From the IMG/VR virus record IMGVR_UViG_3300020190_000445, positions 1-20,094 of that record: DNA of 20,094 bases; one strand, written 5' to 3'. The DNA comes from a virus. How positions within the stretch are numbered: the stretch's first letter is position 1; each line of letters starts with the position of its first letter. The notes below the pieces were generated by a model, which had not been told where the DNA came from, searched no databases, and was given only the letters and a program-made list of their open reading frames with translations. Shown here piece by piece: positions 14,021-18,071 of this stretch. The translations under genes were made by a program, and so were the position numbers.

Positions 14021-14487
14021 AGCCGGATCGGTGCGCCCACCAATGCCCCAGTGTATTTCCTAGGTGGCACCTGGGCACCAACTGGGGAGAGGCTAGAGCC
14101 GAGCTTGATCTGCAACTCGATGAATGATCCACTGATGCCGATCACTTCACCCACGAACGTACCGATCAGGATCTGACTGAGTTGCGGCGCGATTTGATTG
14201 AGTGCAGAGTAGAACTGATACATCTTGATCTCGCACAGGTAGTTATTGCTCAACGCCGCCTCAAATGCTGTGACTGCCACGCTGGTTGCAGGCACCCCAA
14301 TACTGAGCAGCGAATCACCACCAGTGGTGCCTGATGTCAGACCGTTGCAGTCGAATGGATGGTATGACCAGCTGGCACTATCAAGCGTGATGGTCTGCCC
14401 GACGTAGTAGTTCTGCCACCGATAGAACGTGGACGAATCGTTAAAAATCCTCAGGTATTGCGACTGTGCGCGATTCTCTGCCGTCAT
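14017..14487 (-). CDS. Minor tail / tail-tip assembly protein
   Basis: A 156-aa protein between tape measure and tip genes, overlapping both by 4 bp. It has aromatic-rich N-terminal strands (STFYRWQNYYVGQTITLD) and a C-terminal PPRKYTGALVGAPIRL. The position matches the small tip proteins (lambda M/L/K region) that link tape measure and hub. Family membership is not certain. Confidence 0.68.
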   Translation of the reverse strand: MTAENRAQSQYLRIFNDSSTFYRWQNYYVGQTITLDSASWSYHPFDCNGLTSGTTGGDSLLSIGVPATSVAVTAFEAALSNNYLCEIKMYQFYSALNQIAPQLSQILIGTFVGEVIGISGSFIELQIKLGSSLSPVGAQVPPRKYTGALVGAPIRL

Positions 14488-16211
14488 GCGCCAACACCAA
14501 CAAAGCGACGGCCTGCGTTGGTGCGGCTGTTGTTGAGCACACTGGATGCCACAGTCTGCATCGCCTTCTCAAGGTCCTGCATCGTCACGTAGTTTTTGCC
14601 ATCTTGTTGCATCACAGGGCCGGTCTGAATGTTGATTGCAGGTGCGTTCACCATGCCGCCCTCAGCAAAACGAGGGATTGCAGCTGGACCGCGCACACCA
14701 GATAGCCAGTTGTTAGCGAATTGCGTTGCCTTCGATTGCGGCACAATGTATTCTGGCTCGCCACCTTCACCCACCATTGCCATGGTCGGCCTGTTGACCA
14801 TGCCGCCCTCAGCAAAACGAGGGAGGGAAACCATGGGTATTGTCGGGATACTTGGCAAATTGAGCCGACTCAATGCTGCGTTGGCGCCTTGAATCAAGCG
14901 ATTAAGCGCACTGATTGCGCCATTCACAGCTCGTTCAATGCCGCCAATCATGCTGTTAACCACATTCCGAACAACACCAACAGCAGCCTGAAATGGTGCG
15001 CTCAGCGCCTGACCAAGACGGCCAAACACCTGCACAATGTTTTGAAATAATCCAGCCATAAACTGTTTTACAGGGTTCACAAAATTAGTCATGAATCCTT
15101 GTGCTGCTGCTCTCAGCACCTGCCCAATCGCTTGAAATGCGGCGCCAATCTTGTCTCGGAATGCAAAGATCGCCACACCAGCAGCAACCAATAAGGTGAT
15201 CCAACCAACGGGGCCGGTGAAGATGCCAATCAAGACTGGGGCCAATCCAGCCAGTGCACCACCAACTGCAGTGATTGCAGGCACCACAGCGCCAAGCGTG
15301 CCGGCAATTTTTGCAAAAATTGCACCACCTGCAAGTGCTGCAGAAAGCGCACCCCAGACAGTGATCACGGCACTGATCGCTGGAGCAAGGGCCAAGATGC
15401 CGACAACCAATGCAGCGAAACCAGCGATGATCGCCTGCACTGGGCCGGGCAATGCGCTGAATGCTTGCAGGGCTCCGGCGATACCTTGGGCCAGGCTTGT
15501 GATCACCGGAAGTAGTGCAGTGATCGCCTGATTGAATGGTCCGGCTACTGCATTGCCGACTGCATTCAACGAATCATTGAACTGATCCGCCGCCTGCGCT
15601 CCTTCAGTTGTGATCGTTGCTGAATACTGCTCAAGCGCCTCACGGCCTTGGTTGAGCATTGGGATCAGGTTTGTTCCAGCCTTGCCAAATAGATCAAAGG
15701 CCAGTTGTGCTTTCTTTGCTGGATCTGATATGCCAGAGAACTTTCCGGCAACATCCAACATGATTTGATCCATGCTGCGGATTTTGCCGCTTGCATCTGT
15801 TGCATTTATACCAATCGACTTAAGTGCTTCGTTCGCTCTAGAGGAAGGATCCACAACGCTTCGCGCTAGTTTCCCCATTGCCTTGGCCACCTCATCAACA
15901 TTGCTTCCCGAATCCCTCGCCGCATTACCAAAGCGACTCAGGCTTTCAACCGCGACCCCAGTGCGTTGGCTGAGATCATTCAAATTGTCAGCAGCATCAA
16001 CTGATTGCTTGCCTAATGCCACCAATCCAGCCACACCAGCAGCCGGCAACAATGCACCTAATGCCCCACGCATCCGCCCGAATGCGCCCTGCAATCCGGT
16101 TGCTTGCTTATCCGCATTGCCCAAACTTCGCTGCAATGCGTCAATCTGAGCAATGCCATCAACGCTGGCCTTGATCTTGACTGCAGCCGTCATGTCCAGG
16201 GCCATGCTCAA
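14484..16211 (-). CDS. Tail tape measure protein
   Basis: A 575-aa protein that sets tail length and helps DNA pass into the host. The N-terminal 210 residues are helical, with typical tape measure phrases (DAADNLNDLSQRTGVAVESL, DLFGKAGTNLIPML). Residues about 230-352 are strongly hydrophobic with several possible membrane spans. The C-terminal third has two copies of RFAEGGMVN-x-P, one per 49 residues. At 575 aa it predicts a fairly short tail, using the known rough proportionality of about 0.15 nm per residue. It follows chaperone GT with a 4-bp overlap, the classic order. Confidence 0.92.
   Translation of the reverse strand: MSMALDMTAAVKIKASVDGIAQIDALQRSLGNADKQATGLQGAFGRMRGALGALLPAAGVAGLVALGKQSVDAADNLNDLSQRTGVAVESLSRFGNAARDSGSNVDEVAKAMGKLARSVVDPSSRANEALKSIGINATDASGKIRSMDQIMLDVAGKFSGISDPAKKAQLAFDLFGKAGTNLIPMLNQGREALEQYSATITTEGAQAADQFNDSLNAVGNAVAGPFNQAITALLPVITSLAQGIAGALQAFSALPGPVQAIIAGFAALVVGILALAPAISAVITVWGALSAALAGGAIFAKIAGTLGAVVPAITAVGGALAGLAPVLIGIFTGPVGWITLLVAAGVAIFAFRDKIGAAFQAIGQVLRAAAQGFMTNFVNPVKQFMAGLFQNIVQVFGRLGQALSAPFQAAVGVVRNVVNSMIGGIERAVNGAISALNRLIQGANAALSRLNLPSIPTIPMVSLPRFAEGGMVNRPTMAMVGEGGEPEYIVPQSKATQFANNWLSGVRGPAAIPRFAEGGMVNAPAINIQTGPVMQQDGKNYVTMQDLEKAMQTVASSVLNNSRTNAGRRFVGVGA
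14650..14824 (-). repeat. 28-bp direct repeats inside the tape measure gene
   Basis: An identical 28-bp segment lies at 14650-14677 and 14797-14824. The copies are 147 bp (49 codons) apart and in frame, each encoding RFAEGGMVN. Identity at silent positions points to recent duplication or gene conversion rather than protein-level constraint alone. Confidence 0.85.
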
Positions 16212-16495
16212 TTCTCCCGTTCATGCATTACCAGCAGGATCTCGCCTTCCATGATCTGCACGTCGGCAAGCAAAGCAGCTGGGTCGGTCACCTCATACAG
16301 TGTAAAGGTCCACGCCAGGGCTGCATAGTCCAGGCCAACGAGGCCGCCTGGGCCCGTGCGCCATTGCGTCTGACAGCGCAGGAATGCCTGCACTGCAGGC
16401 CAAGCATCAGGCTCAACCTCAAAGTGCTCATCGTCTGGTTCAATATCCAGCTCGATGCCAAACAGCTTGGCATCATCTGCTGTCTGATCAATCAC
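16208..16495 (-). CDS. Tail assembly chaperone GT portion (DUF1799-like)
   Basis: The second frame of the chaperone pair. The frame is open from 16531 (107 codons); an independent GTG start at 16495 would give 95 aa. The segment FLRCQTQWRTGPGGLVGLDY matches the DUF1799 phage family. It is most likely made as a fusion to the upstream protein by -1 frameshifting, giving about 233 aa in place of a separate product. The T domain would bind the tape measure protein during tail assembly. It overlaps the tape measure start by 4 bp. Confidence 0.83.
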   Translation of the reverse strand: MIDQTADDAKLFGIELDIEPDDEHFEVEPDAWPAVQAFLRCQTQWRTGPGGLVGLDYAALAWTFTLYEVTDPAALLADVQIMEGEILLVMHEREN

Positions 16496-16527
16496 GCCGC
16501 CCTTCGTCCAGTAGCGGGCGGCGTCTC

Positions 16528-16908
16528 TCAGTTTTTTGCTTTCGTCCCCGTCAGGCTCTCGAAGTAAGCCACGATGATGGCCGCGGCCACGGTTGGAATA
16601 TCGAGCAGCTGTTGCTTGGTCGCCTCGGAGAAGCGCACCTCATCGCCGTCTGCATCAACCACCCCAGCCCATCCGACCAGCAGTTCATCAGCAATGCTTT
16701 GATCGCTGATGCCGCCATCAGTGGATTCATTGCGCTCGGCTGCCTTGATGCGCACCTGCACCTCGGTTTGGATCTCGTTGATCCGCGCCTGAGGTAACCG
16801 CTTGAACTCTGCGTCGAAGGTTTGTTTCTCGAATTTGCCACCATCGGCCGGCAGCTTCACGCTTACCGGCCACTTGTAAGAGGTGGATTGTTTGAGGACA
16901 AATGCCAT
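16528..16908 (-). CDS. Tail assembly chaperone G-like protein
   Basis: A 126-aa protein between tail tube and tape measure genes, the place of lambda G. The N-terminal half is beta-rich (SYKWPVSVKLPADGGK), followed by a helix (LPQARINEIQTEVQVRIKAA) and a compact C-terminal part (LLVGWAGVVDADGDEV). It should coat the tape measure protein during tube building and is absent from the mature virion. It ends one codon after the slippery heptamer. Its ATG overlaps the tail tube stop by one base. Confidence 0.85.
   Translation of the reverse strand: MAFVLKQSTSYKWPVSVKLPADGGKFEKQTFDAEFKRLPQARINEIQTEVQVRIKAAERNESTDGGISDQSIADELLVGWAGVVDADGDEVRFSEATKQQLLDIPTVAAAIIVAYFESLTGTKAKN
16531..16537 (-). promoter_or_regulatory. 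Programmed -1 ribosomal frameshift site A AAA AAC
   Basis: On the minus strand the G-like gene ends GCA AAA AAC TGA. The heptamer A AAA AAC is in the exact X XXY YYZ phase, with the stop codon next. After a -1 slip, reading goes on as CTG AGA GAC and stays open through the GTG at 16495 into the DUF1799 frame. A GC-rich stretch follows (GACGCCGCCCGC, then GGGCGGCG) that could form a stimulating structure. Confidence 0.86.
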
Positions 16909-18071
16909 CAGGCGAAAGTCAGAACCACCTCATCATTGCCAACAGAGCTGGGAATTGCAATATATGGCAGGTTCAGCATCTGGATGCCGTCGCTGTCGTC
17001 ATAGGTAGGATTGCCCAGGTCAATCGTTGGGGCCACCATCGTCACGATGTTGCCGCCAGTGGTGCCGTGCTGGAAGCACAGCAGGCCGGTGGTCTCATCC
17101 GTTGCGGCGGTGAAGTAATCCTTAGCCGCAATGGTCGGCGCCTCAATCATCACCTCACCGGCAGGCGCACGGTTGGTGATCAGCACCTGCTTAGTGCAGC
17201 CAACCAGCTCGCGGTAGACGATCTCATTCGCCAGGTCCAGATTGATGGACTGGATGCAGGCATCGCTATAACCAAGCACATTCACAGCCAGAGTGTTGTC
17301 AGCCTTGAAGATCAGCGGAGTGGCCTGATCGCTATAGGTGGCAGTCGGTGCTGCGGTATCAGTCGGGGCGTTGTAGATGCCGGTCAGCTCAAAGTTGATC
17401 GTCGGAATTTCGTTAACTTCCATGGACAACTCAAACGTGCCGCGGCAGCCGGTGGCCTTGTGCAGCACGCCATCGTTGTTGAAGTAGATGGTGCTACTAG
17501 CGAAGCTGCTGCTGACTGGGCGATAGCCGACATTGGCGCTGATGCTGTAAGTGCTAGACGCTGCAGGGGTGAACGCTGCGGTGGACTTCTGAACGGTGGC
17601 AACCTTGCTGCTGCCGACATAACCGGTGATGATGCCCTTGCTGCCGCTACCAGTGCCGCCGGTGATACTGATCACCATGCCGATGTAGTACCCATCCACT
17701 GCGCTAGAACCAGCAGCCAGAGTGATGCTGCCAGCGGATCCGGCCTGAGCAGTACCAGTCACAGCCGAACCGGTAGTGGTAGCAGCAAAGCCGCAAGACC
17801 GCAGCAGGGAGTCAACCCGAGAAGCCGTGCCAGCAGTACCGGAACCGGCCAGCTCAACCTCGAACTTGATCATCACCCGTGTCTGGGCAAGGATCTGAGT
17901 GCTGTTGCCCAAATAAGGACGGATCAGATCTCGGCTGACGGTTTCAGCCTCAATCGGGGTCACATCCAAATTGCGCACCAATACTGCATCAGTACCTGCA
18001 GGACTGCTATCGGTCGAGTAGGTGGCCTCAATTTTGGTAAGGATCAGGCGCTTACGGCTGAGAAGCGGCAT
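16908..18071 (-). CDS. Major tail tube protein
   Basis: A 387-aa beta-rich protein that builds the tail tube. The order (connector genes before, chaperones after) and the beta-strand phrases (RVMIKFEVELAG near residue 70, GTFELSMEVNEIPTINFEL near 220) support this. Residues about 100-175 are Gly/Ser/Ala/Thr-rich (GSAVTGTAQAGSAGSITLAA) and appear to be an inserted, probably surface-exposed, domain, making the protein longer than the usual 200-250 aa tube subunit. No truncation is seen. A 398-codon open frame on the opposite strand is treated as a composition artefact. Confidence 0.87.
   Translation of the reverse strand: MPLLSRKRLILTKIEATYSTDSSPAGTDAVLVRNLDVTPIEAETVSRDLIRPYLGNSTQILAQTRVMIKFEVELAGSGTAGTASRVDSLLRSCGFAATTTGSAVTGTAQAGSAGSITLAAGSSAVDGYYIGMVISITGGTGSGSKGIITGYVGSSKVATVQKSTAAFTPAASSTYSISANVGYRPVSSSFASSTIYFNNDGVLHKATGCRGTFELSMEVNEIPTINFELTGIYNAPTDTAAPTATYSDQATPLIFKADNTLAVNVLGYSDACIQSINLDLANEIVYRELVGCTKQVLITNRAPAGEVMIEAPTIAAKDYFTAATDETTGLLCFQHGTTGGNIVTMVAPTIDLGNPTYDDSDGIQMLNLPYIAIPSSVGNDEVVLTFA

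Follow-up and report, generated by a model that had tools for sequence, protein, structure and literature searches.

A highly probable -1 ribosomal frameshift signal between two tail chaperone genes of a putative cyanosiphovirus

The tail module described here is located on the minus strand of a 20,094-base virus record, the whole of which was analysed and is called the window. The order of its genes is tail tube, TAC_4 chaperone, DUF1799 ORF and tape measure, and two ORFs separate the gene of the major tail protein from that of the tape measure protein. The features of the locus are the following:

16908..18071, minus strand: tail tube protein, upstream neighbour (PF18906, E 4e-18)
16528..16908, minus strand: zero-frame ORF, G-type tail assembly chaperone of 126 aa, Phage_TAC_4 (PF08748, E 8e-6, full length; phrog_569, E 7e-22)
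16531..16537, minus strand: slippery heptamer A_AAA_AAC in zero-frame phase, read from the sequence
16528..16530, minus strand: zero-frame stop TGA abutting the heptamer, read from the sequence
16525..16530, minus strand: 6-nt spacer from heptamer to stem, from folding
16516..16524, minus strand: 5' arm of a predicted 9-bp downstream stem (ACGCCGCCC), from folding, synonymous recoding and pair counts
16494..16502, minus strand: 3' arm of the same stem (GGGCGGCGT), on the same evidence
16493..16495, minus strand: possible internal GTG start, the first start codon of the -1 frame, partly within the stem
16208..16531, minus strand: -1-frame T extension, 107 aa plus stop, predicted to be entered only via the slip (open frame; codon-position constraint after the slip)
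16235..16432, minus strand: DUF1799 domain, residues 34-99 of T (PF08809, E 7e-14; phrog_680, E 2e-27)
14484..16205, minus strand: tape measure protein, downstream neighbour (PF10145, E 2e-11; phrog_3981, E 7e-67)

The match of the G protein to Phage_TAC_4 scores 26.5 bits against a curated cut-off of 21.1, and that of the T extension to DUF1799 scores 52.3 bits against a cut-off of 26. No match to the lambda gpG/gpT-type chaperone family was found, nor to any other Pfam family at E 0.1, and no solved structure resembling the G protein by sequence was found. It is important to note that G-T systems usually share low sequence similarity (PMC5009743). The PHROG families 569 and 680, matched by G and T, carry the label tape measure protein. 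The host of the virus is most likely a picocyanobacterium. In a first scan of genome contigs no cellular genome encoding a close relative was found, and the host is therefore deduced solely from kinship with Synechococcus phages.

The zero-frame ORF (16908..16528) ends in the codons ACG AAA GCA AAA AAC TGA. These contain, in zero-frame phase and ahead of the stop of that frame, a heptamer of the X_XXY_YYZ form, A_AAA_AAC at 16537-16531, with TGA directly after it at 16530-16528, as the first-pass annotation of this DNA had read it. The -1 frame opens with CTG (16531-16529), reading CTG AGA GAC GCC..., and is unbroken until TGA 16210-16208, just before the tape-measure gene. The earlier claims that this frame is open from the slip into a DUF1799-like region, and that the fusion would have about 233 residues, both agree with the present data: the frame contains the PF08809 match and encodes the 107-residue peptide LRDAARYWTKGGVIDQ...HEREN, which together with the 126 residues of G gives a predicted G-T fusion of 233 residues. 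In-phase XXXYYYZ heptamers of any kind occur at 9 of 3387 codon positions in the 11 genes of the module. The heptamer at the G stop is the sole one among these nine with Y = A and the sole one adjoining a stop. Conservation is much stronger evidence for the heptamer than this chance count.

Two scans gave about 160 overlapping relative loci, from which 46 representatives with less than 92% identity were kept. These non-redundant cyanophage representatives, all chosen among loci in which a heptamer had been recognised, show no change in its seven bases (46/46). Among cyanophage-type loci (S-CBS1-like cyanosiphovirus) with a readable G end, none was found without the heptamer; the unassessed ones are cut by a contig end. 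The stop follows AAC directly in 44/46 representatives and is found one codon later in a small clade. The codon leading into the heptamer varies (GCA, ACA, AGA, CGA, CTA, GTA, ATA) and always ends in A, while A-ending codons make up 14% in the gene. The slip-site Lys is always encoded by AAA. The conserved Lys that precedes it by two codons has mixed codons, with counts of 24 for AAA and 18 for AAG. All readable junctions of the approximately 160 loci keep A_AAA_AAC in the same phase, with a single exception: contig L027 contains a further G/T module, and the site there is G_GGA_AAC. In that contig (L027 1-1400) the end of T is followed by a few residues from the start of a tape measure protein, fused to the C-terminus of a tail tube protein, and the second G/T pair, with G_GGA_AAC TGA, comes next. 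This arrangement could represent either a chimeric assembly or recombination of tail modules.

The G and T homologues in the Synechococcus phages S-CBS1, S-CBS3 and S-LBS1 have A_AAA_AAC TGA in 3/3 cases; the annotations show no frameshift and list the two as distinct genes, hypothetical or misnamed. The G homologue of S-LBS1 (L162 2501-2881) carries the mistaken label of a cobalamin/siderophore ABC transporter ATPase (FepC), and the paper on this phage mentions no frameshift (PMC6157547). These isolate genomes bear on the possibility that G and T are a single gene, broken in two by decay or by an error of sequencing or assembly. Sequencing errors are indeed common in homopolymer runs. However, the same A6C, in the same phase and with the same stop, is found in independently assembled contigs, in these three isolates and also in proteobacterial phages, and the probability of such an error is considered negligible.

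The codon-position constraint in the 46 representatives changes frame exactly at the heptamer. Upstream of it, the freest codon position is position 3 of the zero frame; in the 11 codons right after the slip it is position 3 of the -1 frame (0.50 versus 0.19 and 0.26). The -1 frame is open through the slip, and it is under protein-coding selection in the codons that follow at once. The change of frame occurs ahead of GTG 16495, the sole plausible internal start. This has a bearing on whether T could be a separate gene, started at this GTG behind an AAGG-like site, with the heptamer being incidental. The GTG occurs 36 nt into the -1 frame and is preceded by GAAGGGCGGC, and the annotations of S-CBS1, S-CBS3 and S-LBS1 call distinct downstream ORFs. 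However, the GTG is not conserved among the relatives, and both it and its ribosome site sit in the predicted stem. The 23 codons that follow the slip contain no start codon in 12/46 relatives; a separately started T would therefore leave the conserved peptide unexplained. The peptide ahead of the GTG is under -1-frame selection, and the invariant heptamer would also remain without an explanation. The internal GTG (16493..16495) is probably not the main route to T, and a separate gene with an incidental heptamer is considered very improbable.

The 9-bp stem located 6 nt after the heptamer is a feature absent from the first-pass annotation. The 62-nt segment containing it has a folding energy of -24.5 kcal/mol (z -3.9 versus dinucleotide shuffles). 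The arms of the stem overlap conserved Ala-Ala and Gly-Gly codons, so that the pairing is partly inherited from the protein. Since such codons could pair by accident, the T frame was recoded synonymously 100 times for each of 90 representatives of the whole family, which controls for this overlap. The excess stability in this test has a mean z of -1.07 at offset 0 and -1.29 at +6, with z = -3.0 and -2.5, respectively, for the sequence of the window; it fades by +18 and is near zero in the remaining T. The corresponding stems of the phages S-CBS1, S-CBS3 and S-LBS1 occupy this position too and differ in sequence. In 38 sequences, 83.9% of the cells of the stem are paired, compared with at most 54% when the arms are slid. 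Two stem pairs in these sequences have two-sided changes, no more than in shuffles, and the covariation score of the stem was reached by 1/500 shuffles. The pair-by-pair covariation is modest. One group of relatives (L007, L009, L021, L074, L120, L128 and similar), marked by the sequence GAGGCTGCGCG, has a weak stem or none there, and the stem is therefore common but not obligatory. A pseudoknot between the loop and downstream sequence was searched for, and no consistent partner was found. Upstream of the slip, an SD-like 4-mer is present 6-17 nt before it (16538-16554 of the window, minus strand) in 29/46 relatives versus a background of 16%, a count in which relatedness is not controlled. 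These 4-mers occur at varying places and are absent in the remaining representatives; they may represent a possible stimulator.

From further single-protein scans and from phage records, 381 loci matching DUF1799 were collected, and 374 of them were scored; these counts are redundant. A search with the RC1-type T gave one relative only. The loci include phages or prophages of Cronobacter, Escherichia, Pseudomonas, Rhodobacter, Vibrio and Aeromonas hosts. In this partly redundant set, A_AAA_AAC directly precedes the stop in 303/374 loci and G_GGA_AAC in 52/374, while 12/374 read AAC TTC TAG, with the stop one codon later. The latter form a clade (L102, L105, L106, L114, L115, L117, L118 and similar) in which the heptamer is kept as AAAAAAC TTC TAG. 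One of the two heptamers thus starts 7 or 10 nt ahead of the zero-frame stop in 367/374 loci, and the conservation in related phages that the first-pass annotation had proposed as a check is found both here and in the 46/46 cyanophage representatives. From these sequences, a heptamer adjoining the stop, A_AAA_AAC or G_GGA_AAC, is the rule in the DUF1799-type G/T pairs of proteobacterial phages.

Among the seven unmatched loci, the stop of one (L171) was mis-picked and its junction reads AAAAAAC TGA. The true departures are Webervirus KingDDD (GCA AAA GTC TAA), Rogunavirus AKS96 (GCA AAG GTC TAA), ST22 (CAA AAG CCC TGA) and Fuzzy_ER39 (CAA AAG CAC TAA). All four keep the -1 alignment, and an A_AAA or A_AAG tetramer could serve as their slip site. 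Relatives with both frames and no heptamer, which the first-pass annotation had named as evidence against the site, are therefore limited to a few distant proteobacterial phages, and these keep the -1 alignment together with A_AAA or A_AAG. The loci L169, L387, L168 and L389, from T1-like or related phages, have no heptamer; their tetramer, A_AAA or A_AAG, lies two codons ahead of the stop, and their -1 T frame is aligned as in the other loci. The site reads A_AAA_AAC TAA in most of the other sampled T1-like phages. In Citrobacter phage HCF1 (L385 480-510) the site is one A shorter, with five, and the annotated stop comes earlier, which could be due either to a sequencing error or to a changed site. 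In a Candidatus Nitrotoga genome (L190) the junction before T (about 1500) reads AAG GGG AAA ATC TAG, without a canonical heptamer, and the -1 T peptide follows.

The site in the window has six consecutive A, and the fusion might also arise by transcriptional slippage, with RNA polymerase stuttering on the run and the fusion being made from edited mRNA. However, six A is short for polymerase slippage, the homologous sites in 52 loci are G_GGA_AAC, without a long homopolymer, and the stem selected for lies at ribosome distance. This origin of the fusion is regarded as even less probable than a separate start of T. Separate initiation, transcriptional slippage and assembly error were all rejected on the evidence against each.

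The gene order, the conserved heptamer, the -1 coding right after the slip and the selected downstream stem support the earlier reading of the site, and allow us to propose with high confidence that it is a signal for programmed -1 ribosomal frameshifting as in lambda G/GT. The majority of ribosomes would read the chaperone gene to TGA and produce the 126-residue G-type protein, while a minority would slip back one base on A_AAA_AAC into the -1 frame and produce the 233-residue G-T fusion. The slip is expected to be a tandem one, in which tRNA-Lys and tRNA-Asn re-pair on AAA AAA, and the stem-loop 6 nt downstream may help it. The level of fusion could be a few per cent. In E. coli A_AAA_AAC is far less shift-prone than A_AAA_AAG (PMC5009743), and the frameshift level may therefore be low, which fits the choice of AAC. 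By analogy with the lambda model (PMC5009743), many copies of G would coat the tape measure and few copies of G-T would recruit the tail tube protein.

It is useful to compare this locus with systems already described. The G/GT system of phage lambda and the equivalent ones of other siphophages (Levin 1993; Xu 2004, 2013; reviewed in PMC5009743) share with it two ORFs between the tail tube and tape measure genes, the second ORF in the -1 frame, and infrequent -1 slipping at a heptamer close to the end of the zero frame, which is predicted here from sequence alone. However, the lambda heptamer is G_GGA_AAG, and the present locus differs from lambda in its Phage_TAC_4 and DUF1799 families, in the stop abutting the heptamer and in the conserved downstream stem. 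Closer in layout are the predicted sites of Acinetobacter phage Loki / IME_AB3, with AAAAAAC next to the gp12 stop (PMC5313236), and of Burkholderia phage KL1, with GGGAAAC next to TGA and a proposed downstream stem (PMC3483164). Likened by motif and position alone, they share the same heptamer class immediately ahead of the stop of the upstream chaperone ORF, but carry an extra gene between T and the tape measure gene that is not found here. The haloarchaeal siphovirus HCTV-2, as cited in PMC5009743, has A_AAA_AAC in the same tail genes (G-T); it has an archaeal host, and the likeness is in motif and genes alone. The same A_AAA_AAC is found in IS1 and related insertion sequences (PMC4066793) as a low-efficiency bacterial site giving little fusion, where the product is a transposase and the proteins are unrelated. 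AAAAAAC adjoining a chaperone stop has thus already been predicted in other siphophages, and the family-wide AAC-stop rule and the selected stem are modest additions.

The adjacency of the stop to the heptamer is nearly but not strictly conserved, one clade having AAC TTC TAG. The first-pass annotation had suggested that the stop may itself aid slipping. With HIV signals, release factor can reach a stop so placed before the slip occurs, and more release factor leads to less frameshifting (PMC4373837). The adjacent stop could therefore equally lower or tune the frameshift level rather than aid the slip. A more speculative proposal, which we regard as unlikely, is that the near-fixed AAC-stop layout of cyanobacterial and proteobacterial DUF1799 G/T pairs is functional: the slip would occur with the stop in the A site after translocation, and competition between slip and release factor would set the G to G-T ratio, which could then depend on how much termination the infected cell is able to perform.

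With the frameshift reading, the cyanosiphovirus tail module, for which annotators list two hypothetical genes or misname them, gains a correct gene model. A whole protein family retains a slip motif that works poorly in E. coli, adjoining a stop and with a selected stem, and the DUF1799-type G/T family offers a clean natural series for asking what sets the G to G-T ratio.

At 573 residues here and 584 in S-LBS1 (L162 3222-4976), the tape measure protein is short. The usual ratio for tape measure proteins is 0.15 nm per residue. A tail of about 88 nm would be expected at this ratio, compared with the 185-190 nm reported for S-LBS1 (PMC6157547).
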